Origin: a virus | Length of the DNA stretch: 49,354 nucleotides | Strand: one strand, 5' to 3' | IMG/VR virus record: IMGVR_UViG_3300027977_000051 | Location: 1 to 49,354 of that record | In this document: positions 1-48,360 of the stretch, in pieces | Position numbering within the stretch: position 1 is the first letter of the stretch | How the letters are laid out: every line of letters starts with the position of its first letter | Made by a program: the position numbers and the translations under genes | Notes under the pieces: model-generated | What the model was told of the DNA's origin: nothing | Databases searched by the model: none | What the model saw: only the letters and a program-made list of their open reading frames with translations

Positions 1-527
1 TCATGAGCATGAGTGAAATGATTCCTGCCATCTGATATTAAATCCTTATAAGGACCATGCTGTTTTATGTCTCTCGCCCAGGTGGTGCTGAACGCAGGGT
101 TACAATAGGAACAGGCAAAATTACATGTTCTATCAAAGGCAATCTCCAGGGTTTTTAGATTTACATCTTCTGTGATGGGAGTACTGAATGCTCTTTCTAG
201 ATCCGCGTCTGGATAGATTTTACTTTTGTAAACCCTGTCACTCACGGCATCTCTGCCCATGTCCTCAATCTTCCAGCAGTATTCGCAACCAGCGGGGCGT
301 TCGCCCGCTATCATTTTGGCGCGGTCCTGTTTCTTCTGCGGGGTGTTGTGCAACAATCTGGGATTATCTCTTAATTTTGCCACATCCACTTGGTGAGCGG
401 GCGGATGATGGCAGCTGGTGGTCATTCCAGAGCCCAGCCATATGGTGGCGTTGTACCACTTGGCTCCACAGAAGCTGGGAGATAGCGAATCTAATATTTG
501 TTTACGATATTCAAGATCTTTATTCAT
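1..527 (-). CDS. Radical SAM protein, N-terminal part (cut by window edge)
   Basis: About 175 residues are visible; the C-terminus lies beyond the left edge. The radical SAM cluster motif CxxxCxYC (C135, C139, C142) is present, so it should bind a [4Fe-4S] cluster and cleave S-adenosylmethionine. Upstream are four more cysteines, C20 (in CGAKW), C39 (in SCHHPP) and C81/C84 (in CEYC, followed by WKIED), which recur in the radical SAM genes at 1158 and 46375. The start is the ATG at 527, which overlaps the end of the SGNH gene by 8 bases; no good Shine-Dalgarno sequence is seen, so translation is probably coupled. It is the last visible gene of the minus-strand accessory operon starting at 5604. 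The family is often called 'twitch-domain radical SAM' in marine phages, but the substrate is unknown. The radical SAM class is certain; the reaction is not. Confidence 0.85.
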   Translation of the reverse strand, partial: MNKDLEYRKQILDSLSPSFCGAKWYNATIWLGSGMTTSCHHPPAHQVDVAKLRDNPRLLHNTPQKKQDRAKMIAGERPAGCEYCWKIEDMGRDAVSDRVYKSKIYPDADLERAFSTPITEDVNLKTLEIAFDRTCNFACSYCNPAFSTTWARDIKQHGPYKDLISDGRNHFTHAH

Positions 528-1161
528 TGTTTTTTATTGCTGCGTAGACTTTGTCAGCCCAAAGTTTATTTTGTTCGGCGCTCATGTGATTGATTATACC
601 TTTGCCCCACGGCATTGTTGCCCCTCTGCCAGGCAAGAAATTTAATTCATGGTTCAATGATAGAGCATACATGCTCTCATCAATGAATATTCCGCTGCTC
701 AATTTGATTCCAGCGTCTTTTTTTGCCTGTTCAAATGGACGGAAGCTCCAGGTTTGTACAATTGTTTTATTTTTTATTTTAGATAATACGTCGTGGTCAA
801 ACCATTTCAGGGCATATTCGTAGGCCAACTCATCTCTGTCGTAGCTGTGCAGGTGTATGAAGTACTGTTCCAGGGCATCGTATATCTTAGGATTCACTCC
901 GGGAACGGGCTGGGTATTGGCCGACAGTATCAGATCTGGATGATACAACCTATAAGGCTCTGTATAGCACAGCACGCAGGTGTCAGGCAGCTTATTTTCC
1001 TGGTTCAATTTATTGAATTTAAAAAAGGTAGTCCATATGCTGCGGCCGGGCTCGCCCATGTGTACTATCTTGGCTCCCAATCTATCTGCCAACAATGTGC
1101 ACCAGCTTTCTTTTTCCTTGCCTGCGCAGAAACTGTCTCCAAAAAATCCTATTGTCCTCAT
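520..1161 (-). CDS. SGNH/GDSL-hydrolase-like protein
   Basis: 213 residues. Near the N-terminus the sequence FFGDSF places a GDS nucleophile motif at residues 8-10 (catalytic Ser10), and GEPGRS at 37-42 resembles the second SGNH block. A C-terminal His192 in INHMS, followed by a helix, fits the catalytic His block, although the usual DxxH Asp is not evident. The third block normally has Asn; here CYTEPYRL occupies that place. Such enzymes remove or transfer acyl groups on sugars or lipids. The start is the ATG at 1161, which overlaps the upstream radical SAM stop as ATGA, a sign of translational coupling; longer in-frame starts would run into that gene. Position after glycosyltransferase-like and radical SAM genes suggests tailoring of the same product, which is inference. 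Confidence 0.68.
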   Translation of the reverse strand: MRTIGFFGDSFCAGKEKESWCTLLADRLGAKIVHMGEPGRSIWTTFFKFNKLNQENKLPDTCVLCYTEPYRLYHPDLILSANTQPVPGVNPKIYDALEQYFIHLHSYDRDELAYEYALKWFDHDVLSKIKNKTIVQTWSFRPFEQAKKDAGIKLSSGIFIDESMYALSLNHELNFLPGRGATMPWGKGIINHMSAEQNKLWADKVYAAIKNNE

Positions 1162-2552
1162 AAGCTCTTGCACTCCTGCCAAAATTCCTGCATCTCAGGA
1201 AATGTTTGCTCAAAACTTGTGCCACGTCTGCGATCGTGTTCTGCAAAAAATGCGTAAAAATTCTTTTTCTGCGCACTGTCTTTTTCCTGGTGCTTGCGCC
1301 AGTAAGCAAGATTGCGCTGCATCTTCTGTATCTCAAAGTCTTTGAACAACGAGAAATCCAATCCAGTTCCAGTCACTTGTTTGGGACCAATCTGCTCATG
1401 GTGATCCATCATGTATTTGATGTTGTCCTCATGTATGCGCTGATATGATTCGGGCAGCAGGGTTATCTGTTGCCATGCGGGCTGGCGCAGCAGGGGAATA
1501 TCGAACCACACTCGCTGATAGGTTTTTGAATGCTCCGATCTCAACAGGCGTATGTGTTTGAGTAATCTGTTCAGTGAGGTCACACTTAAATTATTGTAGG
1601 TGATGATAAAAGTGATGGAATTGCGCACGGGTATCCTGTGCAGGAACTCATTGACATTGTCCATGAATTGATTGTAGTTCAGTCCGTTCCTGATGTACTC
1701 TGCCTGTGCGCCATGGGCATCCACAGACACGAACTGCATGAAATGCTCCACTTTCTCATCCAGGCATATCCTTTTGACCTGATCAAAATACTTGTTTTTC
1801 AATTTGATGTCCGGAGGACACATGTTTGATGTAACATTTAGGTGCAGGTCTTTCTTGGGATGATCTATGATGTAGTCAAACACTCGATAGGTGTTGACAT
1901 CCATCATGGGCTCGCCACCGGTCATGCGGAAGTGTTTTAAATTCTTATACAATTCCGGCCACCAGCGCCAGAATGCTTCCACGTAGGGATTGTTTTCTCT
2001 GTTGGGTATGGGCATCCTCCTGCCCGTGAAATGCTCGGGTGCGTTGTGCTCTGGCGCAGTGGGATACGCTCCATATATGTCTATCTCCTTGCCCCATGCA
2101 GTGGAAAATTGTGGTGAGCAATAGCTGCATTTGAAATTACAGGCATTGTTGAAGTTTACTTCCACATAGCGAGGCACATGTGTCCTGTCCAACGGATTGT
2201 CTCTGATCTTCTCAAAGTCCATCATGGCCCATGGCTCGCCGGAACGATAGTGGCGATCACTCATCTCGCCCGTGTCCTCCATCTTCCAGCAATAGGAACA
2301 GCCCGCGGGTCTTTCGCCTGCCAGCATCTGTTGCCTCTGCTTGATCTTTTCTTCTGTGTTGTGCAGTGCTGCTGGATTGTCTGCCAGGCCTGCAGCATCT
2401 ATTTCGTGCAATGGTGGATGATAGCAAGAGTTCGTCAGTCCTGTGGGCAGATGCAGAGACACCTGGTTCCATTTGGCCAGGCACATGGTGGGGCTTATTT
2501 GTTCTAATTCTCTCTTTGCCTCATCCGCTGATGTTTTATAAACGCTACTCAC
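1158..2552 (-). CDS. Radical SAM protein with N-terminal four-Cys module
   Basis: 464 residues from a GTG start at 2552, chosen because AAGGAG lies 9 bases upstream and the start overlaps the previous stop (GTGAGTAG). The radical SAM motif CxxxCxYC is at C138/C142/C145 and a GGEP SAM-binding motif follows (MTGGEPMM). N-terminal to it are C24 (CLAKW), C43 (SCYHPP) and C85/C88 (CSYC, then WKMEDTG and SDR), the same arrangement as in the truncated gene at 1-527 and the gene at 46375. The C-terminal part has only scattered Cys and no SPASM-like cluster, so an auxiliary cluster, if any, should be bound by the N-terminal Cys. It lies between a glycosyltransferase-like gene and an SGNH-like gene in one operon. 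The substrate is unknown; peptide, sugar or nucleotide modification are all possible. Confidence 0.9.
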   Translation of the reverse strand: MSSVYKTSADEAKRELEQISPTMCLAKWNQVSLHLPTGLTNSCYHPPLHEIDAAGLADNPAALHNTEEKIKQRQQMLAGERPAGCSYCWKMEDTGEMSDRHYRSGEPWAMMDFEKIRDNPLDRTHVPRYVEVNFNNACNFKCSYCSPQFSTAWGKEIDIYGAYPTAPEHNAPEHFTGRRMPIPNRENNPYVEAFWRWWPELYKNLKHFRMTGGEPMMDVNTYRVFDYIIDHPKKDLHLNVTSNMCPPDIKLKNKYFDQVKRICLDEKVEHFMQFVSVDAHGAQAEYIRNGLNYNQFMDNVNEFLHRIPVRNSITFIITYNNLSVTSLNRLLKHIRLLRSEHSKTYQRVWFDIPLLRQPAWQQITLLPESYQRIHEDNIKYMMDHHEQIGPKQVTGTGLDFSLFKDFEIQKMQRNLAYWRKHQEKDSAQKKNFYAFFAEHDRRRGTSFEQTFPEMQEFWQECKSL

Positions 2553-3435
2553 GATCCTGCACTCCTTTGTTCCTGTAAGGTTGTTGACAAAACTTATAAA
2601 ATTGGCTCTGTGCTGCATCAAAATCTGCCACGGGCAATGCCAATCTCTGTCGCAGACTGTTGCCATGGGCCGACATATCAGATTCTATATCATACATCAT
2701 GTGAGAAAATTTGTCGCTCATGAATTCTAAATCTCTGACCAGTGTGACATCGTAGTTTGTATCCAGCGTGGCCATATAACAGCCACATCGGGCACCCAGC
2801 ATGGCCCATCGACCATTCTCCACGTCAGCACCCACGCTCATCCATGTGACTAGATTTCTAAGATTGGGCTGGGGGATCGTCTGCATGAAAAGGCTAGGAT
2901 CTACCTTCTGTCCATTATCGAGACTCATTTTAACACCTTCTCTCCATCCTGCTATGAAAGCCTGTTCAGGAGTATGATTGATATGTGTCGTGGAGTATAC
3001 ATTGTGCAGATTCTCATGTGGCACCGTCCAACAGAAATCTATCTTGGCTCGTTCTTCCACAGCATTTTCATGAGTTTTCATTTCCAAGCAAATCTTGCGA
3101 GGCCATCCCACAATACCACCATTGCCATATATCAATCCATTAATAATGTTTCTTGCTCTCCAACGATGCACAGCAAGAGGATTGGTCTTGCTCCAATCCA
3201 GCGTCTGTAATAGGAAAGCGGGATCTATTCTATTGTCCCCATCGATGCTGATAAAGAAATCTGTTTCTGCTCGTTCGGCGGCGGCCTTGTGTGCGTTGTC
3301 AAACCCCTTGACTCCATGCACTCGTTTGGCCCAGGGCACTATGTTCAATAGGTCAGCGTAGTTCTCATCAGCGTTGGGCTCTCGATAGCTAATAAAAACA
3401 AAATCTAGATCGGTTACTCGGACGGTGTTTGCCAT
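2545..3435 (-). CDS. Glycosyltransferase-like protein (GT-A type)
   Basis: 296 residues. The N-terminus DFVFISYREP opens a Rossmann-like strand, and FISIDGDNRI at about residues 61-70 gives a DGD motif of the DxD kind that binds metal and nucleotide-sugar in GT-A enzymes. Later stretches (VHRWRARN, GNGGIVGWPRK) resemble acceptor-side loops of such proteins. No membrane segment is evident. The start is the ATG at 3435, with AAGGAGGA a few bases upstream; the longer in-frame reading has no such site. It overlaps the preceding small gene by about 22 bases and the next radical SAM gene by 8, so the genes are tightly coupled. The donor and acceptor cannot be told from sequence. Confidence 0.6.
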   Translation of the reverse strand: MANTVRVTDLDFVFISYREPNADENYADLLNIVPWAKRVHGVKGFDNAHKAAAERAETDFFISIDGDNRIDPAFLLQTLDWSKTNPLAVHRWRARNIINGLIYGNGGIVGWPRKICLEMKTHENAVEERAKIDFCWTVPHENLHNVYSTTHINHTPEQAFIAGWREGVKMSLDNGQKVDPSLFMQTIPQPNLRNLVTWMSVGADVENGRWAMLGARCGCYMATLDTNYDVTLVRDLEFMSDKFSHMMYDIESDMSAHGNSLRQRLALPVADFDAAQSQFYKFCQQPYRNKGVQDRE

Positions 3436-3755
3436 GCGTGTCCTCCTTCTCCCGTTCCAGTGGGCCAATATGGATCTCCATTAGAAAAATGCAAGCCATC
3501 AGACGATGCCAACAGCACACTGTATTTCCGCTTTATCTCCGCGGGGGGCTTACGGATGATCTTGCCCTGCTCGTAGTAAAAATTTTGATGTCCTTGGCCC
3601 AGCAGCATGAGGTATGTTTGCTTGTCTACGCTTGTTGTGTCCGTGCCCTGTTGGTTGGCCAGGCACAGTATCTCATTGCCTTTGGTCCTGATGTAGTATT
3701 TTGGATCAAATTTCTTGGGCTTGAAATTCTTCAGCGAATCAAAAAGTTCTTGCAT
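3414..3755 (-). CDS. Hypothetical protein, 113 aa
   Basis: I do not recognise this protein. It begins MQELFDSLKNFKPKKFDP and is basic in its N-terminal half, with a mixed beta-rich middle (EILCLANQQG, TYLMLLGQGH) and a Gly/Pro-rich tail. No membrane segment, signal peptide or catalytic motif is visible. It overlaps the glycosyltransferase-like genes on both sides (17 bases with the gene upstream, 22 with the one downstream), and the ribosome-binding site of the downstream gene lies inside it, so it is a genuine operon member rather than a shadow. Its place between two glycosyltransferase-like genes suggests a role in the same pathway. Confidence 0.6.
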   Translation of the reverse strand: MQELFDSLKNFKPKKFDPKYYIRTKGNEILCLANQQGTDTTSVDKQTYLMLLGQGHQNFYYEQGKIIRKPPAEIKRKYSVLLASSDGLHFSNGDPYWPTGTGEGGHAWQTPSE

Positions 3756-4542
3756 CTAACACCTCCGGTATGTTCTTGTCATGGTAGTGCCACACGCTGG
3801 ACATCCTTCTTCCCCCCAGGTACAACCTGTCCCGCAGCCTGACGGGATAGAGATAGTTGTTGCAGTCCTCGGTGGGCGAGCCGTTGATGGCTGACTTGCC
3901 ATGCACGAACTTGAACCATTTGTAATCTATTAAATTTTGCTGCGTGGGTTCCATGATCCTGTGGGCCAGGGCATACACCACGTCCGTGGTCGGGAACTTG
4001 TCATGGCAGTTCACGAGCATTTTTTCTTTGACCTGCTGCCAGTTGCTCGCTATGGCATCGCACAGCATGAAAAATTTCTGTGCCATTTTGCTTTTCCTGA
4101 AATATGTCAGCCCGTTGTATATGTTTGGCAGGTGATTCCTTGTAAAAAGTTTCCTGTATGTGCCGTCCACGATCTCCTGGTCACGATAATTCAGGCAATT
4201 GACGGAAAACACCATGTCACGCTGGCACAGGTGCTCCCACCACCAGTCGGTGTTGGCTGTCCACAGCATGTCAGACTCCAGCTTGATAGTGTGTACATAG
4301 GGTGACAGCGAGAACACCTGATGTTCATTGGCAAATTTTTGTTCGTGCTCCTGGCTGTGATCTCTCCGCAGCAGCCGGACCACGTCCACGTGCTCGCTGC
4401 TGAACATGGAATGCTCGTCCACCAGCACGCATATGCTGTTGTGCCTGTTGTGTCGCTTGATGGACCTGGCAAGTTCAATGCTGCACCTCACGTAATCAGT
4501 GGTGCTGTTGTTCTGGCAAACCCAAATGAATCCCCTAGACAT
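3739..4542 (-). CDS. Glycosyltransferase-like protein (GT8-like)
   Basis: 267 residues. The N-terminus RGFIWVCQNN followed by a helix (DYVRCSIELARSIKRH) and the strand SICVLVDE resemble the first two Rossmann units of small GT-A or GT8-type enzymes. KLESDMLW at about 87-94 is in the place of the DxD motif, here ESD. A YNGLTYFRKS stretch and a late DVVYALAHRI helix fit acceptor and donor-site elements of the family. The start is the ATG at 4542, with AAAGGA upstream and an 8-base overlap with the preceding gene; a longer reading frame exists but lacks support. It is probably a soluble cytoplasmic enzyme of the same pathway as its neighbours. Confidence 0.55.
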   Translation of the reverse strand: MSRGFIWVCQNNSTTDYVRCSIELARSIKRHNRHNSICVLVDEHSMFSSEHVDVVRLLRRDHSQEHEQKFANEHQVFSLSPYVHTIKLESDMLWTANTDWWWEHLCQRDMVFSVNCLNYRDQEIVDGTYRKLFTRNHLPNIYNGLTYFRKSKMAQKFFMLCDAIASNWQQVKEKMLVNCHDKFPTTDVVYALAHRIMEPTQQNLIDYKWFKFVHGKSAINGSPTEDCNNYLYPVRLRDRLYLGGRRMSSVWHYHDKNIPEVLDARTF

Positions 4543-16824: not shown

Positions 16825-19800
16825 TTGTTGGTTCTCCTGCTATGAATCTAGCTTGGTTAGTTGTTGATTTTTGTAGTCCTTTTCCATCGGAAGCCGTGCC
16901 CGAGCCGGTTGTGTACCACACCCTGCCCCGCTTCTGTACCACTTTTACCTGCACTTTTGCAGCTGGCACGCTGGCCAGCACCACGTTGGCGGTGCTGCCA
17001 TCCACTGTGAAGTTGGCTGTGCTGCCATCTTCGCTGATGTGTGGCAATCTCTTGCCGCCCACGAACACGTCCAGCTCATTGGGAGTTGCCGCCGCTATGC
17101 TGGTGGGGAACTGGGCAGTGCTGCCATCGGACAGTGAGGTCTTGGTGAAAACTGTTTCCGCATATGGCACTGTCTGTGATCCTGATGCGTCCACTACCTG
17201 TGTTCCTGATGTGTGTGTGCGTATGCCCGTGCCCAAAGTACCCCTGCGCAGTTGTGACAATGTGTTGTTGTTCTTGATGAAATATTCTATCCTCTCCTTG
17301 TCTATGAAGATGACTCCCGGTACGGATCCTCCTGGGGGAGTGGCCAGTTTGCTTCCGTCCGCAACTGTGATTGAAGTTGCATCTTCCGTCAGCGCCGCCG
17401 CCAACGCAGTTGTGTCATCGGAACTGATCCTCTTGAAGAAGGTCCTGTTCAGCATGTCCTTGAATATCCTGAAACCTGTTGCCAACTTGGCGCTCTCCAC
17501 CGCGAAGTACATCACGTCCACTCGGTCTGTGGCAGTGAGAGATATGCCACTTATTTTTAATTTCTTGCCGTCGACGAAATAATTTGATCCAAACGTGAAA
17601 TCATATCCCTGGGTCAATGCCTGTCCATTCAACCAAACGAACAAGTAGTCGCTGTTCATTGGCGTGTCCTGCAGCACGAACTCTCCGGTGCTGTTTCCTG
17701 CGAAAATTTCTCTTCTTTGATTCATCCCCAGTGCGTTGTTGAAAGTGGTTGTTGAGAATGTTGTGCCGGACGTCAGCGTGATGCCATCCGTGGCCAATTG
17801 CGCTGGCCTGAATATTATATCAGCGCCCTCGGTGTAGTAGTGGTTGTCCAACAGCACCGACACCGCCACGACATCTGTGCTGGCGGGGGCCGATACCAAC
17901 TGCACCTGCTGCGTGCCAAGGTTCACTGTGTAGTCTGTGCCTAGATCTTTCTTGGTTCCATTCACAAACACCTGTGCCTGAGTGGCGCTGGTGACAGCGT
18001 TGGCAGGATCTGTGCCCAGGCTGTAGGTCACGGTGCTGCCATCGCCCGCGTAGTATGTGTTGTCGGGTCCTCGTAATATCTTTCCACCAACTTCGATCAT
18101 GGTCAGTCCAGAGAATGGACCTATGGATCCTGACGGATATGTCAGTGTGTACCTGTTGCCACCGTCGTGAACTTTTTGTTCAGCTCTGATCTCTGCCTGT
18201 GCCCTGCCGCTGCCGGCTGGCTGATTGAATGCTGCTATCTGTATGGATTTTCCGATCGCTGGCGCGGTGTTGAATGTCAAAGTGATTAATTTATTAGCGG
18301 TTGTGTATGTGTAAGCCGTTGTGGGAACTCCGTCCACAGTGACGTAGAGCTGGCTCATAGCGCTGTCCAGCTGGAATGACTCTCTCGCCGCGGTGACGAA
18401 GGATGTTGTCGATCCATCTCCGATCAAGGTGTTTATCACGATGTAGTTGCTGCCTGACATGGCAAAGCTCTTGATGCTGATCTTGGCGTTGGCTGCTGGG
18501 GCGGCCAGCATAGTAATTGTCTTGGCGTCAACGTCAACCGTGTAATCAGTCGTTAATCTTTTGGTCTGACCATCTATCATCACTATCACTGATTCCAGTG
18601 TTCCTGGCATCTGTCCTATAGCGAAGGTCGTGGTTGATGCGTTGCCAATATAATTTTTCATCATGATGAATGGAACTCCTGATTCTGGAGTGGTGTAGAC
18701 CTTGATGTCCACTGTGTCAAACATGCTGCCTGGCAGGTTCTCTTCTGGGGCGTAGCTGGTCTCCGGCGTCACGAAGCCGTCACCCTCTAATATGATGTCA
18801 CTTGGCGCTATGCCCACCGCGGATCCAAAAAGCCCGCCCGTGATTATGGAGTCCAATGTTTTGTCGTCTGTGGGTGTCAACACTCCATCATCATTGAACA
18901 ATATGAACTGTATCTCATCGCCAGTTCCTGCCACTGCGCTGTCATCTGGGATGACCGTGAATGTCTTGGTCGAACCATCTCCTCGGAACACCAATGATGT
19001 TTGCCTTACCCCGTTTATGTACACTGTGTAAACATCGGTAGCGCTTGGAGCGGTGGAGAAGGTGAAGCCCGTGGTGCTTCCGTCTCCATAGAAAGTTTGC
19101 ACCCTGCTGAGTCCGTATGAGTCCCATGGATTGTCATACCATGGACTCCTGTCCCATCCTTGGCTGTTGTCAAATGCCAATCCGGTAACCATGACTCCAC
19201 CGTAGTCCACGCCTGTCATTACTTGAGAAAGCTCATTGCCCGGCATGCCCGATATGGGATCATACATACCCAGCGTCCTCTCGGCCGCGGTCAAGTATGG
19301 TTCATCACCTCGCAACTTGGTGAGATATGGCAAGCCGTCCTTGAATTCTGCTGTGCTAGTGAAGCCGCTGTTGACCTTGTAGAATCCCTGTTCGTACCTG
19401 ATCAGGTCATTGAAAGCATAGTCACGATTGGCCTCCCAAAGCAGCACCGTGGCCGTGGACTGCACCCTATCAAATTTTATGGTTGTGTGAATGTCCCTCA
19501 CCACATCGTTGGTCAGATTGGCATAGGCCCTGGCAAAGTTTGCCGGCGTGGTGCCCCCCGCTCCCCCACCCGTCAGCACCACCGTTGGGGTGGCTGTGTA
19601 GTTCGTGCCGGGAGTCAGCAACCTGATGCTGGTCACCGATCCGCCCTGTACTATCGCAGTGGCAGTGGCCTGCGTGTTGTCCGCCGTGGTGTAGACATCA
19701 TAACCGGAAGGCCTGTCCGTGTTGGCAATGTTCTGCCCTGTCGTGGGCATGTGGAACTCCAGTCCGGGATACTCCACAAACGTGAATATTGTGCTGGTGC

Positions 19801-33631: not shown

Positions 33632-36400
33632 CTAAAAAAAACTTCCGATACTGAAATTTGAAAGTGCTCCACCAAAGTCTAGGCTGGCCAGATCAAAGCT
33701 AGCTATGCTTCCAATATCAAATCCTCCAAAAACATCTCCTATATTTGTGCCGATCTCGCCCAAAACACTTCCAGCGGAGCCAAATATTCCTTCGATCCCA
33801 CCCGAGATCACGCTGGTGATGTTGGTCAGCGAAGTTATCTCTCCGGCTATGATGTTTCTGAACTGATCAGTAACGATACTTATGCCTGTCTGTATGGCGG
33901 CGTTGCCTAGTCCCTGTATCAATCCCTGCGGAGAAAGATTACCCAGGTTGATGCCGGACAGGACGTTGTTTCCAAATGCTCCCAGCGCAGGCCCAAATAT
34001 GCTGTCGGCATTTTTGAACAGGTCCGTCAGCCCACCACCAAATACCGCGGTATCCGCAAATGATGACGCCGAGGGCAAGCTGGCCCAGTCCACGTCGAAT
34101 CCAAGACCCTCGAACTGCTTAAGAAGATCTATTTCTTGCGATATGTCCACGTCGCCAAATATGTTTCCTCCAAAGTTTTTGAAGGCGTCGGCAAAGTTGA
34201 TGTCTCCCAGTCCAACTGCTCCAAAGGCCTCGGCAAAGTTTGCGGAGCTTGCAATCTGCTGCATGTCGTTGGCCAGCGCATATGTGTCTATGCCATCGTT
34301 TCTGAAGAAATCCTTGACCGCTGAAATGTTCCTGTCAGAGAATATGGAGCTGGCGACGTCCTTGACTTGTCCTTGGATGGCGTTGTTGAGGGCGTCCCCC
34401 ACCGTGGTCTTCAGGGCGTTTTCGGCCGTTGCGGTCAGCTGCTTCACTATCCCATTTGGATTGATGTCGGATAAATTTGTGATGACCTTGCCCATGTCTC
34501 CCAGTGTATATAATACCCCCGCTTGGTTGACGAACACCTGGTCCTTGAACAGGTTACCTAGTTCTCCGCCCGCGGCTCCCGTGATCCTGTTGATGACCTG
34601 ATTGGACACGTCACTGATGCCTGGCAGCAATGGTCTGATGGCCAGTGGTCCCGAATCTGCTAGATTGAAGATTGTGCTGTAATTCTGTGTGAACTCGGCG
34701 GTGGCTTTCTGTATCGCTGCAATATCTGTCTTGCTTGGACATACTTCTCCGATGTATTTTTCCAGATCGGCCTGGTATTGTCCTAACCTGCATGCCGGCA
34801 CTAGGCTTAGTCTCATTTTATTTTCTTGATGTCCCAGCGTGCCTGGCTTGTTGGCATCTTCTCTCCTGCCTGCAGATGTGAATGCTTTGAAATTGTCATA
34901 GTGCCACAGGAATGGTTCGTGCGTGGGCACTCGCATGCCCGACATGCCTGGTATGCTCCTGTCCTGCCTCAATACCCCCACAGTTCCTTTCAGTATCGGT
35001 GTCACATCGGGCACCTGGATCTCTGCCGTTCCTGTGCCATTGGGCTGACCAAATCCCGTCCTCTGCAGCGGTTTCAATAGATTTGGATCCACCGGCATGC
35101 TGTTGAAATGAACCTGGCTGCCCACGAGATGCACCTGCCCAGATGCCTGATGTATCTGGTTGCCTCCCGCTGCCTGCGTGTAAATGCTCATGCCCGTGCG
35201 CAGGCTGTAGTAGCCCTTGTCCACCGAAACATTCATGGCACGGCTGGCTATCTGGTTGATGATGGAACCGTCTATGCTGACGAAGCCCTTGATCGTCCTG
35301 TCCAGGGGATCCTCTCCCAGGTGCTCGTTCGCTTTGATCTTTATGTTCCTGTTGGCGTACATGTTGATGTCGCCCTCGGAATGGAAATTGATGTCTCCAC
35401 CTGACCTGATGTTGTAGCCTTTCTGGGCGTATATGTCCACGGCGCCATCGCCACTGAACTCCATCCACACGGTGCCCTTGGCGTTGGCCAAGTAAATGAC
35501 TCCTGCCGTGTCGTGCATCAGCAACTGGTGTCCGGAACTGGTCCTCAATCGTATCAACTGATTGTCTCCCTCTGCATCTCCGTCATCCATAACAAAAGTA
35601 TGTCCTGCGGATCTCACCACCGGCACGTCCTCTTGGGCGTCTATGGGTCCTAGTTTTGCTTTCCTGCCTGCTGGATCACTCCTGCCGGGCGTGCTGATTC
35701 CAAAAACTGCACTGGGGCTCTCCCTGCGTGCGGAGCTGGTGGTTGTCCCCCTCACGGTGTCCTGGCTGAGTCCTTGCTCCCTTAGGGTGTTGGCGAATGG
35801 ATGTATTGCCTTGCGCAGCCTGTCTGTGCTGCCAAGTTTGTTGGCTTCAGCATACATCTTCCTGTTGAGTTCGGCTGCCGGCACAATATCTGTGCCGTAT
35901 GTGTCTTTCTTTAGATCGTCGGTGCTGTTCTCAGAACTTTGCTCTCCGACTGTGTCTCTACTGGCTGCTATTCCTGGTATCATGTGATTGGTCAGGGGCT
36001 CCTGCACACAACCAAACCAGAATCCCTGTGACACTTTTCCTTCGACGAATATAACCATGACCCTGCTGTCTATGTCTGGTGGCACCATCCACATTCCGTA
36101 GCTGTGAGAGCCATCTTCGTACTTGCTGATGTCTTTGGTCTCTCCACTGCCTGCAAGCGCCTGCACGCTCTTGGAGCCATAAAATGGCATCAGATACTGC
36201 ACGTCATAGAGTTGTCCAGCATATCCTTCGTTGACGCCGGCCAAGCTGGGTATCAACACTCGCAGTCCCCCCATCTTTCCGGGGTCCACGTTGTCCTTGA
36301 CTATGCCTATGTATGGTCCTGGGTTGACCTCTGTGTAGGTCGAGCTCCTGTTCTGCCTGTTAGGCGTTGATGTGTCTCCGTATTTCCTTGACATTGACAT
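33632..36400 (-). CDS. 5: Baseplate hub / tail spike protein gp5, without lysozyme domain
   Basis: 922 residues. The N-terminal OB-fold region (PGPYIGIVKDNVDPGKMGGLRVLIP ... MWMVPPDIDSRVMVIF) matches gp5/VgrG proteins. The needle is a beta-helix of strands such as QLIRLRTSSGHQLLMHD, GVIYLANAKG, AVDIYAQKG, DINFHSEGDINMYANRNIKIKA. No T4-type lysozyme domain is seen between them, as in other marine T4-like phages. The last about 430 residues are an Ala/Gly/Phe/Ile-rich extension not present in T4 gp5, ending in a Phe-Gly-Ser-rich tail. The start overlaps the upstream stop as TAATG with GGAGGAG before it. gp5 forms the membrane-piercing spike of the hub. Confidence 0.88.
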   Translation of the reverse strand: MSMSRKYGDTSTPNRQNRSSTYTEVNPGPYIGIVKDNVDPGKMGGLRVLIPSLAGVNEGYAGQLYDVQYLMPFYGSKSVQALAGSGETKDISKYEDGSHSYGMWMVPPDIDSRVMVIFVEGKVSQGFWFGCVQEPLTNHMIPGIAASRDTVGEQSSENSTDDLKKDTYGTDIVPAAELNRKMYAEANKLGSTDRLRKAIHPFANTLREQGLSQDTVRGTTTSSARRESPSAVFGISTPGRSDPAGRKAKLGPIDAQEDVPVVRSAGHTFVMDDGDAEGDNQLIRLRTSSGHQLLMHDTAGVIYLANAKGTVWMEFSGDGAVDIYAQKGYNIRSGGDINFHSEGDINMYANRNIKIKANEHLGEDPLDRTIKGFVSIDGSIINQIASRAMNVSVDKGYYSLRTGMSIYTQAAGGNQIHQASGQVHLVGSQVHFNSMPVDPNLLKPLQRTGFGQPNGTGTAEIQVPDVTPILKGTVGVLRQDRSIPGMSGMRVPTHEPFLWHYDNFKAFTSAGRREDANKPGTLGHQENKMRLSLVPACRLGQYQADLEKYIGEVCPSKTDIAAIQKATAEFTQNYSTIFNLADSGPLAIRPLLPGISDVSNQVINRITGAAGGELGNLFKDQVFVNQAGVLYTLGDMGKVITNLSDINPNGIVKQLTATAENALKTTVGDALNNAIQGQVKDVASSIFSDRNISAVKDFFRNDGIDTYALANDMQQIASSANFAEAFGAVGLGDINFADAFKNFGGNIFGDVDISQEIDLLKQFEGLGFDVDWASLPSASSFADTAVFGGGLTDLFKNADSIFGPALGAFGNNVLSGINLGNLSPQGLIQGLGNAAIQTGISIVTDQFRNIIAGEITSLTNITSVISGGIEGIFGSAGSVLGEIGTNIGDVFGGFDIGSIASFDLASLDFGGALSNFSIGSFF

Positions 36401-38601
36401 TACGCTCCTCCGCCTCCGGTTGAGTTTTGCGAACTATTGTATATTTCATCTATCCTGCGGTTTATGTTATCTTTGGTGTCTCTCCATATGCCTTTCTTTA
36501 AGTCTTCCGCTTTTTGCGCAAAATCATTCATTATGTTGATCTGGTCTGCAACGTTGACCTCTTTGCCCTGTTGGTCGAAGCGCATCATTTCCAAGGCCTG
36601 CGTAAATTTTCCCTGTGCGAATGTGCTGGTGACTTTGTTGACCTTGTACAGTCCGCTGAAGGCCACGTTCTCCAGTCCTTTGAAGTCCATTACTCCCTGT
36701 CGCTCGCTGATGTCTGTGGGGAATCTGAAATCCAGTGACACAAAGCACTCGCCCTGATCAAAATTGAAGCAGCCCAGTCTGTCATCCCACAGCGCTCCTG
36801 TCTGTCCTTGCGCTCGTTCAGTTACTATCTTGCCAGACTGATCCAGTGACACGTTGCCCATGGGCAGCACGTTCTCTTGTCCTATGTAGGCGGGATCCCC
36901 CATGATTGTCATCTCAACGTTGACCATGTTGCCAAGCGGATTGGTTAGGTATTCCATGAAGCCATCCACCTGCGTTCTGCTGTTGGCGTCATCTGTGGAG
37001 GGATCCTCATTTTTTATGCTCGACGGATAGTTCCTCAGGGGCAGCAGCTTTTCTGGGTAATCCACTCCCTTGTTTCCATATCTCCTGGCCAAGTCTATCA
37101 GGTTTAAATTATTTCCTTTCCTTGCGCTGGCGGCATCGCTGCGAGATCCATCAAACAATGTGGGCTGCCAATAGGCATAATTGTAATTTAATTTAAGATC
37201 CAATATCTCGTTATTTTCTCCGGTATAGATATACTTGTAGGCTTTCTTCACACGCTGTCCCCAATGGTTGCCCGCACTGAGCCCCGGCACCGCGAAATTC
37301 ATTATATGCACCCTCCACGGGATGACCCGAAAATGTATTATCTTTGCGTGTTGCTTGGTCACGCGATCAAATGCCTCTGTGTTGTAGATTGATGTCCTGA
37401 TCTTGAACCACGGGACCATCTCCTCTGGCATCATTTCCTGCAGGTCCTTGGTTGACACTTGCCCTTCCAGCTCCTGCACCCTGCTGAGATCCTTCCAATA
37501 CTTGTCCACTATCTTGTTGATGTTCCTGTATTCCTCTGTCTGCAGCACTATGTCCTGTATGACCTGCGCTATGCTCATGTTTGGCCTGATCGTGAACTTG
37601 TACTTGGCTGGTCCCCGTGCATCATCGGCGTCGTTGGCATCTCCCCCCACCGACTGAAATACTCCATCCGCGGTGTCTATCACGTATTGATCCAGGGTGC
37701 CGATTTCATCCCGCAGCCCTAATTTCAGCTCCACTCGTTGGTGCTCGTTGAGATTCTCCGCAAGTATCTCCAGAGTGCCCTTCAGCGTCGCGGACCTGGA
37801 GTCCAGAAATGTGGAAATTTTTTGTTTGGCGTCTGTGAACATGCCTCCTGTGCCGCGTGTGTACATGAACCGGTCCGTCATGGCCAGCTCGGGCTGCACG
37901 ATGGTGGAAACTTCGTATTGCGTGCCACCGGCGTTGACCTCCATCGCAACGGTGCTGACCTTGAATGGTATCTTCCTCGCAGTGATCACCTCTAGGGGGT
38001 TGCCTCTATTGTCATATCCTCGGAACTCTATGGTCAACAGGAATGGGCAATCTATGTGATCCCTGTAGCCGTTGTTGAATGCAGCCGCCTGCAATTTCTC
38101 GAACAGCGTGACTCCGAATGGTTCGGTCATTGTGAAGTCCATCTTGTTTAAATTTATTAATTTGCGCTCCTCGTTGGCACCGTTGTTGCCTTGTATGACC
38201 ACCGTCTCGAAGAATATGTCATGTGCCCTGGTCAATATCTTGTTGGCTTCTCCGGCCAATTTGATGCTTTCCGGGCTCAGCGTATTTTGGAACCTGTCCA
38301 ATTGGGTCAATGGCACCCCGTCGGCGGCCACTTTGCCCGCGCTGTTGAATGGAGTGAATCTGGCCTGGTTGCCTATGCCTCCCGATTTGGCTATTATGTC
38401 ATGCGGGGGATTAGTCAATATGGTCTTGGGATTGTTCATTTCGTCTCTGTCGAGCGTGGACCAAGTGAATATGGTGTTGAATGATGCATATTTGTCCAAC
38501 ACGTTTGGTCTCAGGGCTGTTCTCCAAGTGCCGCCACGCGTGGGTTGGCCCGGGGAGGCATCGTTGCCTGTGTTGGAATATGTGATCTCTTCAGAGGCCA
38601 T
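36400..38601 (-). CDS. Putative baseplate hub protein (gp27-like position)
   Basis: 733 residues. It begins ASEEITYSNTGND and has mixed beta sequence with AEANKILTRAHDIFFETVVIQ, CPFLLTIEFRGYDNRG, KVSTVAMEVNAGGTQYEVS and a later TIRPNMSIAQVIQDIVLQTEEYR. These are features of hub proteins that form the gp27-like ring, and the gene directly precedes gp5, whose partner in T4 is gp27. I can see no direct T4 gp27 signature, so the call rests on place and composition. It starts 2 bases after gp53 and ends in TAATG coupling with gp5. Confidence 0.6.
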   Translation of the reverse strand: MASEEITYSNTGNDASPGQPTRGGTWRTALRPNVLDKYASFNTIFTWSTLDRDEMNNPKTILTNPPHDIIAKSGGIGNQARFTPFNSAGKVAADGVPLTQLDRFQNTLSPESIKLAGEANKILTRAHDIFFETVVIQGNNGANEERKLINLNKMDFTMTEPFGVTLFEKLQAAAFNNGYRDHIDCPFLLTIEFRGYDNRGNPLEVITARKIPFKVSTVAMEVNAGGTQYEVSTIVQPELAMTDRFMYTRGTGGMFTDAKQKISTFLDSRSATLKGTLEILAENLNEHQRVELKLGLRDEIGTLDQYVIDTADGVFQSVGGDANDADDARGPAKYKFTIRPNMSIAQVIQDIVLQTEEYRNINKIVDKYWKDLSRVQELEGQVSTKDLQEMMPEEMVPWFKIRTSIYNTEAFDRVTKQHAKIIHFRVIPWRVHIMNFAVPGLSAGNHWGQRVKKAYKYIYTGENNEILDLKLNYNYAYWQPTLFDGSRSDAASARKGNNLNLIDLARRYGNKGVDYPEKLLPLRNYPSSIKNEDPSTDDANSRTQVDGFMEYLTNPLGNMVNVEMTIMGDPAYIGQENVLPMGNVSLDQSGKIVTERAQGQTGALWDDRLGCFNFDQGECFVSLDFRFPTDISERQGVMDFKGLENVAFSGLYKVNKVTSTFAQGKFTQALEMMRFDQQGKEVNVADQINIMNDFAQKAEDLKKGIWRDTKDNINRRIDEIYNSSQNSTGGGGA

Positions 38602-46374: not shown

Positions 46375-47643
46375 CTAAAGTTCTACCAACCAAGGAAACA
46401 CTTTCTTCCAATTTGTGTTTCGTCGCTCATCAAGTTTAGATAATATAACTTTTAAATTCTGAATCTTTGCATTGTTCTTTTGCTTATCGCGAAAGGAATC
46501 CACTATGCCTCTCCAATACTTTTTTGTAGAAATCTCCCTGAGATTCTTTTCAGGCATCAGTTCCGTGCAATATTCCAACTGCTTATGAAAAAAATCCTGC
46601 CCCGCTATGGTCGGATCAAAGCTCTTTGAGTCGGTATTAAAACTGTGAATGATCCTGTTGGAAGATCTGGTGCTGTTCCACACGTTTATTTGTTTCAATA
46701 ATGAGTCAAAATAAGGCAGCGTCAATATCGTTATTGCGGAATTGATTCCCACCGTGATCTTATGGCATGCCAACAACTTTGCAAAATTTTTCTGCCATTT
46801 TTCGAGGCTCATGCCATAGCGCACATATTCGGTTTCGGTCGTCAGGCAATCTATGCTGGCTATCACTTTGACGTTGTAAATTTTTTTCTTTTCTACCAGA
46901 TTATTGATCTTCTCCAGGAATTGGTCAAATCTCTTCTCCTCACATTTGAGGTTGGTTATCAGCTGGAACGTGAGTGAATCATTGGGATGATCGTTCCAAA
47001 AATCCAAGCATTCGTCAAGTTCTGGGATAAGCAATGGTTCACCTCCCAGCAATGAAAACCATCTCAGTTTTTTGTATCTTTCGTCTTGCTTTAAATATTT
47101 CCAAAAGTCCTGTTTCTGCTTGTCGTAATTGGGATTGTGTTGTTCCTCGTTCACGTCGCCCACTCCTGTGGAATCCAATTCGGAAATTTTGCTATGTTTT
47201 TTATTTTCTTCCTGCCACTTGGAACTGAAATGTGGTCCACAGTACACACAGCTCATGTTGCATGTGTTCTTGAAATACACTTCCAACATGGTTGGCGTCA
47301 CATGCACCGCGGATGCATCGTTGGCCAATTCGGGGGCATTTAGATTGATGTCCGTCTGCTGAGATAATTGGTGCATTCTATCGCTGTATCCTCCCGTGTC
47401 TTCAACTTTTTTACAGTAGTTGCAATCATTTGATGGCCATTCCCCCTGTAACATCTTGTTCCTGTCGTCTATCTTCTTGGGTACATTGTGGAACGATCCG
47501 AAATCATCCACGGGAATCATGTGCTTCTGTGTGCGGTGACACGAGCTGGTGGTGCCGCTTTGGAAAAAGATATTGCTCCATCCCCACTTCAGAAGGCATG
47601 CAGTTTTGGTGTTTATGGGAAAGAGTTGTTTTTTGCCGGACAT
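46375..47643 (-). CDS. Radical SAM protein, third copy
   Basis: 422 residues from the ATG at 47643; the longer frame runs into the preceding gene. The motif CNMSCVYC gives CxxxCxxC, and LGGEPLL is the GGEP motif. N-terminal Cys in CLLKW (C16), SSCHR (C35) and CNYC (C73, C76, then KKVEDTG and SDR) repeat the pattern of the copies at 1-527 and 1158-2552. The C-terminus has no SPASM-type Cys set. It is more divergent from the other two than they are from each other. It belongs to a minus-strand unit with a GIY-YIG gene and ends in a strong terminator. Substrate unknown. Confidence 0.88.
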   Translation of the reverse strand: MSGKKQLFPINTKTACLLKWGWSNIFFQSGTTSSCHRTQKHMIPVDDFGSFHNVPKKIDDRNKMLQGEWPSNDCNYCKKVEDTGGYSDRMHQLSQQTDINLNAPELANDASAVHVTPTMLEVYFKNTCNMSCVYCGPHFSSKWQEENKKHSKISELDSTGVGDVNEEQHNPNYDKQKQDFWKYLKQDERYKKLRWFSLLGGEPLLIPELDECLDFWNDHPNDSLTFQLITNLKCEEKRFDQFLEKINNLVEKKKIYNVKVIASIDCLTTETEYVRYGMSLEKWQKNFAKLLACHKITVGINSAITILTLPYFDSLLKQINVWNSTRSSNRIIHSFNTDSKSFDPTIAGQDFFHKQLEYCTELMPEKNLREISTKKYWRGIVDSFRDKQKNNAKIQNLKVILSKLDERRNTNWKKVFPWLVEL

Positions 47644-47650
47644 GCAATAT

Positions 47651-47908
47651 TTAGGCTGTAAACCATCTCCTGGCCACTGGTGTTGAGTGCGTGAGGCACC
47701 ACATGGTCCATTCCTCGTCGGTGAACTTGGCCCGCACAATTATGCTGTCGGAAGCGAACTCCAGATCACATAAATTTTTAAGGTAAAGGTCATGCACGTG
47801 GGGAAAGTGCGACAACCATCCCTCGAACAATATCTGCGCCTGGAATGCATCGTCATATTTGCCATGTGTTTTTAATTCACCCACGATTCTCAATGTGCGC
47901 TGTGTCAT
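47651..47908 (-). CDS. Small hypothetical protein, 85 aa
   Basis: Starts MTQRTLRIVGELKTHGKYDDAFQAQ at 47908, overlapping the GIY-YIG stop as ATGA. The sequence is mixed helix and strand with no known motif; FTDEEWTMWCLTHS stands near the end. Its place between an endonuclease and a radical SAM gene, with coupled translation, argues that it is real. A substrate or partner of the radical SAM enzyme is possible but not shown. Confidence 0.55.
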   Translation of the reverse strand: MTQRTLRIVGELKTHGKYDDAFQAQILFEGWLSHFPHVHDLYLKNLCDLEFASDSIIVRAKFTDEEWTMWCLTHSTPVARRWFTA

Positions 47909-48360
47909 GCTTGCCTGTCTATTATCAGCGATCCATGCACACGCACACGGATGTGTCCATTGTAGTACATGTCGGATTCCAACACCTTCCTCGCGAACTG
48001 TTCCCTGGCCTCCACGTAGTTCAATTCTGCCTTGCTGCGGCAATAGTAAAGTATCTCTCTACGAAATCGATCTTTGCCTAAAGTTTCTATATCTCTGTTC
48101 AATTGATCACTGCTGCCGTAGTAATCCTGCCAGCCGCTGTCCGCCGCGCCTCTTATTTTTTTGCGCACTTTTTTTCCGTTTTTTTGCGTGTGCATTTTAT
48201 ATCGCGTGGTCTTGAATTTGCTCAGCTTCTTGCCCACGTACATGCGCCCTGACACCGTGTTGGTGATCAGATACACGAAGCCGGCGCAGTCCGCTGGTAA
48301 TTCAGAAACTGGCTGATTGTTGTGGATCCACTGCATATTGGTATTTAAACTCACGAACAT
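47905..48360 (-). CDS. GIY-YIG endonuclease-like protein
   Basis: 151 residues. AGFVYLITNTVSGRMYVGKK is the GIY-YIG core in a variant form (FVY at 28-30 and YVG at 41-43), with the metal-binding Glu117 in NYVEAREQF and a late Asn134. DYYGSS and FRREILYYC are typical of the phage family. Such nucleases often act as homing endonucleases or in DNA exclusion. The ATG at 48360 is taken; another at 48336 is possible, and no clear Shine-Dalgarno sequence is seen. It leads the unit with the 85-aa gene and the third radical SAM gene. Confidence 0.78.
   Translation of the reverse strand: MFVSLNTNMQWIHNNQPVSELPADCAGFVYLITNTVSGRMYVGKKLSKFKTTRYKMHTQKNGKKVRKKIRGAADSGWQDYYGSSDQLNRDIETLGKDRFRREILYYCRSKAELNYVEAREQFARKVLESDMYYNGHIRVRVHGSLIIDRQA

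Follow-up and report, generated by a model that had tools for sequence, protein, structure and literature searches.

A probable auxiliary-cluster domain of the twitch type ahead of the core in tandem radical SAM proteins of T4-like phages

The viral record IMGVR_UViG_3300027977_000051 of IMG/VR contains, within its positions 1 to 49,354 (the whole stretch of 49,354 nucleotides that we analysed, here called the window), three genes for radical S-adenosylmethionine (SAM) proteins that carry four cysteines ahead of the radical SAM core. What do these additional cysteines do? The original prediction, which was made from the DNA letters, stated that they may bind an auxiliary [4Fe-4S] cluster or zinc in a permuted arrangement. 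Here we conclude that the first ~100 residues of these proteins are probably a twitch domain with an auxiliary iron-sulfur cluster, placed ahead of the core. The strand of the three copies, on which the prediction was silent, was established here and is given with their coordinates in Table 1.

A script check confirmed that the motifs CxxKW, SC[HY], CxYC, KxED, SDR and CxxxCxYC are common to all three copies. The first pair of cysteines furthermore fits C-x13-G-x4-C in each of them, a feature that had gone unmentioned, and the order of cysteines ahead of the radical SAM motif is C-x13-G-x4-C ... C-x2-C in all three. The residue numbers that had been assigned to the cysteines hold for copies 1 and 2; in copy 3, the second pair is C74/C77 and not C73/C76.

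To estimate conservation in the wider family, we used a scan with copy 2 that resulted in 76 viral loci. The open reading frames (ORFs) from these loci and the window gave 280 matches, 215 of them unique, and conservation was counted over the 201 unique ORFs of 330-600 amino acids (aa), leaving out double-length ORFs of 850-865 aa and fragments. Along the chain, the four N-terminal sites are cysteine in 201, 200, 201 and 201 of these 201 relatives, and the radical SAM cysteine columns in 201 each. Clustering at 60% identity yielded 61 representatives with the four N-terminal cysteines in 61, 60, 61 and 61 of them. As mean column identity is only 22% (129-row alignment), this conservation is far beyond chance, and the expectation that the cysteines are kept across the family is borne out. 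The sole exception, at the second site, carries its cysteine one column earlier. That earlier column is cysteine in 92 of the 201 rows, most of which read CC, so that the ligand at the second site is ambiguous there; both the spacing in the literature and the hhalign alignment point to the first cysteine in the CC members. The other motifs fared less well outside the window: the K of CxxKW, SC[HY] and KxED are features of a subtype, whereas the four cysteines are conserved throughout. Further module residues that are kept family-wide are W28, R73, E92 and S98 (at least 90% of the sequences, copy 2 numbering) and R100 (all sequences). In the core, the motif GGEP is retained (G in 201, G in 200, E in 201 and P in 199 of the 201 sequences).

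According to the accessible text of PMC6231123, the signature of the SPASM domain starts with CX9-15GX4C-gap-CX2C; a twitch domain is described there, and in the accessible text of PMC9012708, as a shortened SPASM domain that holds one cluster. The family studied here shows this pattern, with four cysteines and without the set for a second cluster. Past the radical SAM motif, the commonest cysteine column is occupied in only 53 of the 201 sequences, in agreement with the earlier statement that a C-terminal cysteine set is lacking. We also considered a two-cluster SPASM domain (CX2CX5CX3C plus the last C) and rejected it, as only the four N-terminal sites are conserved.

The identity of the module was addressed with profile searches. 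Both complete copies match the NCBIfam model NF033640 (N_Twi_rSAM, 'twitch domain-containing radical SAM protein'), copy 2 with 326.3 and copy 3 with 218.2 bits at a cut-off of 170. Copy 1 reaches 132.6 bits and stays below the cut-off because the gene is cut; its full-length counterpart (G001:36129-37421) scores 286.4. We read the short name N_Twi as N-terminal twitch. To look at the module by itself, 96 N-terminal modules were excised without the core and compared to the libraries at an expectation value (E) of at most 1 (Pfam) or 0.1 (NCBIfam). All 96 match NF033640, 51 match Pfam SPASM PF13186 (best 4.1e-15) and 37 match the SPASM model TIGR04085. Against solved structures, the profile of the 96 modules finds only BtrN below E 1 (4m7s/4m7t, E 0.0025/0.0027) and aligns to its C-terminal twitch region (4m7s 164-239), cysteine on cysteine. 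By counting in the 4m7s alignment, these are cysteines 169, 187, 232 and 235 of BtrN, which we take to be its cluster ligands. The full-length profile also aligns to BtrN, with query positions 18-90 on 4m7t 185-258 (E 1.6e-4).

These matches do not come equally from all members. The subtype of the window (groups A and B of the tree described below, plus copy 3; 37 modules) aligns with the sibling subtypes (26 modules) by hhalign with probability 97.9 and E 6.5e-13, all four sites being in register, and the sibling subtypes alone find the BtrN twitch at E 1.6e-5. Several observations weigh against the assignment. The window subtype alone finds neither BtrN nor any other radical SAM chain among the solved structures at E of at most 10, and the module of copy 2 alone has no Pfam match at E of at most 1. 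In fold searches with the predicted module alone, BtrN is matched weakly by Foldseek, where its entries come first and sixth of 6 (E 3.2 and 8.8), and by VIA (Z 2.2 over 75 residues at a root-mean-square deviation (rmsd) of 3.6, and Z 2.1 over 82 residues at rmsd 4.5). Copy 2 alone has no match at E of at most 1 among the solved structures. Because the window's own subtype has no direct match to BtrN, the window proteins are assigned to the twitch domain via homology to their siblings and via the family model. Taken together, the four invariant cysteines, the matches to SPASM and NF033640 and the match of the siblings to the BtrN twitch give good support, at the level of sequence, to the proposed displaced auxiliary-cluster module. 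The module occupies residues ~18-100 and the core motif residues 138-145 of copy 2, which differs from the canonical C-terminal placement of a twitch domain. The arrangement that had been called permuted is thus one in which the whole domain has moved ahead of the core; the order of elements inside it is unchanged, and there is no internal permutation.

The structure of copy 2 was predicted with AlphaFold2, both at full length (predicted local distance difference test (pLDDT) 95.9, predicted template modelling score (pTM) 0.93) and for the module alone (pLDDT 95.0, pTM 0.83). In the model, C24 lies just ahead of a predicted hairpin (E30-34/E39-41) and C43 just after it, and C85 and C88 lie in a helix (83-93). 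This predicted secondary structure fits the twitch plan. A structure prediction had been suggested as a check on whether the four cysteines come together; our models answer this indirectly, through their confidence and their predicted secondary structure. Among 65 chains compared with VIA, only the two BtrN entries reach a Z of at least 2, and the fact that other families are missing from the fold-search lists for the module does not count against them. For the whole model, Foldseek ranks SkfB highest (E 8.7e-5), and VIA gives Z 14.2 at rmsd 3.3 over 224 residues, which are those of the core. The analysis shows sequence conservation, domain identity, domain order and a confident fold prediction.

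The three copies in the window are not isolated genes. Copies 2 and 1, in this order, are the first two members of a tandem array that is seen at its edge. The record behind locus L004 is identical to the window at 1158-2666 and 3000-4500 but, as DNA, does not match it exactly at 1-527; the product of its next family gene (L004:8134-9486) starts with the complete 175-residue sequence of copy 1. This record has five family matches among the matches listed. The 201 sequences were placed in a tree; cut at a depth of our choosing, it contains five large groups (56 sequences in A, 45 in B, 38 in C, 24 in E and 18 in D), with a mean identity of 18-32% between and 48-64% within groups. Group A is followed by group B in 56 of 77 loci (the 76 and the window), and some of the loci without this succession are accounted for by genes broken off where the locus ends. 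D and E are found in either order; otherwise the order of the array, which occurs on many T4-like phage contigs and involves up to five orthologous groups, is nearly fixed. In thirty records, hand-picked from the 76 loci rather than drawn at random and including several near-identical contigs, the number of family matches per record ranges from 2 to 15 (E of at most 0.001, among the matches listed). In the window itself, the T4-like setting is seen from baseplate genes (wedge genes of phrog_10646 and phrog_219, hub/lysozyme, gp25 and gp53) and an SbcC-like gene. Among these 30 records and the window, 23 of the 31 contain a NodU/CmcH-type carbamoyltransferase (PF16861), and its distance to the array, taken in 18 of these 23 with the matches listed as the limits of the array, is ~1.9 to 7.8 kb. 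An iron-sulfur carrier (PF01521) was considered as a regular partner of the array and rejected, since it exceeds the cut-off in only 4 of the 31 records.

Two further arrangements were seen among the array genes. Between groups A and B, locus L108 contains a radical SAM gene of the usual order (18253-19284; core at residues 20-177, then SPASM at 260-331), so that a single gene row contains both orders of the domains; ten viral loci hold this gene or relatives. Furthermore, two complete units can be fused in one frame (twitch-core-twitch-core), as in L026, L035, L047 and L049 (850-865 aa) and in G012, G017 and G030. In G017, for instance, the units at 34311-35498 and 35529-36713 form one frame of 864 aa.

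In 50,697 phage records searched with groups A, C and E, we found only the Vibrio phages K566 and K567, plus one unannotated single-cell virus contig (C and E). Vibrio phage K566 (L128, OZ196521.1:152000-182000) has five N_Twi relatives, one of them annotated as hypothetical, whose N-terminal modules match with E between 8.7e-14 and 0.0012; the array lies beside a gene annotated as PagP. For copy 3, no relatives were found among the phage records, and its relatives in viral contigs amount to three loci. A scan of bacterial and archaeal assemblies with group C yielded 25 loci, and the N-terminal pattern is kept in most of the complete members. Phage-like rows of radical SAM genes appear there on contigs that had been assigned to bins of Betaproteobacteria, Verrucomicrobia, Pelagibacter, Rickettsiales and Flavobacterium (L083-L087). 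The proteins of these contigs are 73-81% identical to phage ones, and the contigs are probably phage DNA in bins. Other contigs, for instance those from Paenibacillus, Synechococcus, Mangrovivirga and a Cytophagales genome, look cellular and have neighbours of mixed kinds.

How could the displaced domain work? In the proposed mechanism, the twitch domain would consist of a beta-hairpin flanked by two cysteines, followed by a helical segment that leads to CxxC, in front of the barrel, and the four cysteines would bind one fully ligated auxiliary [4Fe-4S] cluster, as in BtrN. The core cluster (CxxxCxYC) would cleave SAM, and the resulting 5'-deoxyadenosyl radical would take a hydrogen from the substrate. 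The auxiliary cluster would then most likely accept the electron of the substrate radical, so that the substrate would lose two electrons net or be cross-linked. We infer the type of cluster, its role as electron acceptor and its docking near the active site. Four cysteines that include a CxxC are a common zinc pattern too, and it is conceivable that a structural zinc is bound in a twitch-like fold that was kept after the iron-sulfur cluster had been lost. The window subtype alone, which has no radical SAM match, gives a marginal zinc-finger hit (3uk3, E 6.2). We nevertheless consider zinc improbable, as the sibling subtypes, in which these four cysteines are invariant too, match SPASM and BtrN and can be aligned with the window subtype (see above), and as the family carries the name twitch (NF033640). 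Between the two ligands that the original prediction had left side by side, sequence comparison thus makes [4Fe-4S] much the likelier. A cluster might also be present without accepting electrons and instead bind the substrate, as it does in MoaA, or serve as a relay that reduces the core cluster. The open site of the MoaA twitch cluster binds guanosine triphosphate, as described in the accessible parts of PMC6231123 and PMC9012708, and one cysteine site is ambiguous in the CC-type members; but four invariant cysteines speak for full ligation of the cluster, as in BtrN, and we regard the other roles as unlikely.

The substrate is the more difficult question. Several such enzymes in series, together with glycosyltransferase-like genes and the carbamoyltransferase, may tailor a surface glycan during infection by T4-like phages. 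This is the weakest step of the proposal, and we hold it tentatively, at odds clearly below even. What puts a surface glycan first among our guesses is the carbamoyltransferase, together with the glycosyltransferase-like neighbours, the presence of PagP in K566 and the host recognition cluster described in the accessible text of PMC7029224. Two results speak against it. The carbamoyltransferase has no match in the window itself, where the array is cut. In addition, the cellular homologues lie in unlike contexts (a polyketide-like cluster, polysaccharide export, FolE2 and a pyridoxal phosphate-dependent decarboxylase), and such mixed contexts do not single out glycans. Modification of peptides or fibres is nearly as likely as that of a surface glycan. 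That the substrates are peptides or proteins, in a maturation of tail fibres or of the kind known for ribosomally synthesised and post-translationally modified peptides (RiPPs), is a possibility to be taken seriously, if still short of an even chance: many of the SPASM enzymes studied act on peptides (according to the accessible text of PMC9012708), the array lies near fibre-like genes, the isolated modules match several peptide-maturase SPASM models, and SkfB is the best match of the whole model. However, no precursor peptide or RiPP recognition element was matched among the neighbours scanned, where small ORFs were not searched systematically, and the recurring partner of the array is a carbamoyltransferase.

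Table 1. Radical SAM copies, their N-terminal modules and other ORFs of the window
Feature	Position	Strand	Remarks
N_Twi radical SAM copy 1, group B	3-527	-	Gene cut by left window edge; 175 aa; twitch C20/C39/C81/C84; radical SAM C135/C139/C142
N_Twi radical SAM copy 2, group A, complete	1158-2552 including stop	-	Coding 1161-2552, start GTG, stop 1158-1160, frame open up to ATG 2666; twitch C24/C43/C85/C88; radical SAM C138/C142/C145
N-terminal twitch module of copy 2 (residues 1-106)	2235-2552	-	
N_Twi radical SAM copy 3, separate from copies 1 and 2	46375-47643 including stop	-	Coding 46378-47643, start ATG, stop 46375-46377, frame open up to TTG 47739; twitch C16/C35/C74/C77; radical SAM C128/C132/C135
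N-terminal twitch module of copy 3, as aligned	47362-47664	-	Begins 7 residues ahead of ATG 47643
220-aa ORF between groups A and B, overlapping both neighbours	520-1182	-	SGNH-hydrolase-like by eye (FFGDSFCAG)
ORF adjoining copy 2	2545-3468	-	Glycosyltransferase-like by eye
ORF with weak match to QueC-like phage family	12404-13213	+	phrog_1550, E 0.00021
Single ORF of 4291 aa	16811-29686	-	Between fibre-like and baseplate genes
GIY-YIG endonuclease	47905-48360	-	Pfam SegE_GIY-YIG 3.3e-32; best PHROG phrog_447

The two ORFs that adjoin copies 1 and 2 had no library match, and their functions in Table 1 are readings by eye. Many of the ORFs neighbouring the radical SAM genes had no match in the Pfam search. 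For the GIY-YIG endonuclease, the label of phrog_447, NAD synthetase, looks wrong.

When comparing the phage proteins to known systems, we find no difference in kind from NF033640, which both complete copies match over their whole length. The phage members form several deep groups in tandem, on which the name of the model is silent. BtrN (4M7S/4M7T) is a twitch radical SAM dehydrogenase of butirosin biosynthesis. It shares the four-cysteine pattern and the alignment to the module profile, whereas its twitch domain is C-terminal to the core and there is otherwise little sequence likeness. Its auxiliary [4Fe-4S] cluster has four cysteine ligands; that the auxiliary cluster acts as electron acceptor has been seen directly in SuiB and put forward for BtrN and PqqE (ligands as given in the accessible text of PMC9012708 and PMC6231123, role in that of PMC9012708). 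The enzymes anSME, SuiB, SkfB, PqqE and MoaA have the radical SAM core fold and the first half of the SPASM signature in common with the N_Twi proteins; their auxiliary clusters lie in C-terminal extensions, whereas the N_Twi proteins are without the second-cluster cysteines of SPASM. The AhbD heme synthase model TIGR04545 matches 8 of the 96 N-terminal modules, and the viral 'ahbD' genes from the Baltic Sea that appear in the accessible text of PMC9301287 might in part be N_Twi proteins.

The layout with an N-terminal twitch domain is already named in NCBIfam (NF033640) and is hence no discovery. Rows of radical SAM genes in T4-like marine phages are also in print: the accessible text of PMC5332604 describes 12 such genes in TARA_ERS488813_N000010, and that of PMC7029224 a variable host recognition cluster of pelagimyophages with tail fibres, glycosyltransferases and radical SAM cassettes. 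Like the phages studied here, these are T4-like with several radical SAM genes, a likeness by description rather than by comparison of the genes. Neither text, as far as it was accessible, mentions twitch domains, their position or the orthologous groups. In the open-licence PubMed Central literature, our searches brought up no paper that deals with a twitch or SPASM domain at the N-terminus or with NF033640, no biochemical study of the NF033640 family, and none that joins radical SAM, myovirus, carbamoyltransferase and glycosyltransferase. The setting of the array, with its tandem groups and a carbamoyltransferase usually nearby, is more unusual than the module itself.

At its widest, our proposal is that T4-like phages hold a dedicated radical biosynthetic line in which up to five enzymes (groups A-E), each with its own auxiliary cluster, would be flanked by a carbamoyltransferase on one side and by glycosyltransferase-like genes on the other. 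The product would be a small molecule, such as a carbamoylated and oxidised sugar, that is displayed by the infected cell or by the virion and decides who infects next. The relocated twitch domain would then be a common electron acceptor that lets one scaffold diversify into several reactions. We offer this as speculation that is rather unlikely to hold in full. The N_Twi family nevertheless provides a test of whether the position of an auxiliary cluster in the chain matters if its position in the fold is kept. Furthermore, a gene row of oxygen-sensitive radical enzymes in phages points to unknown chemistry during infection, and Vibrio phage K566, which is deposited and has five relatives, would make this question testable.

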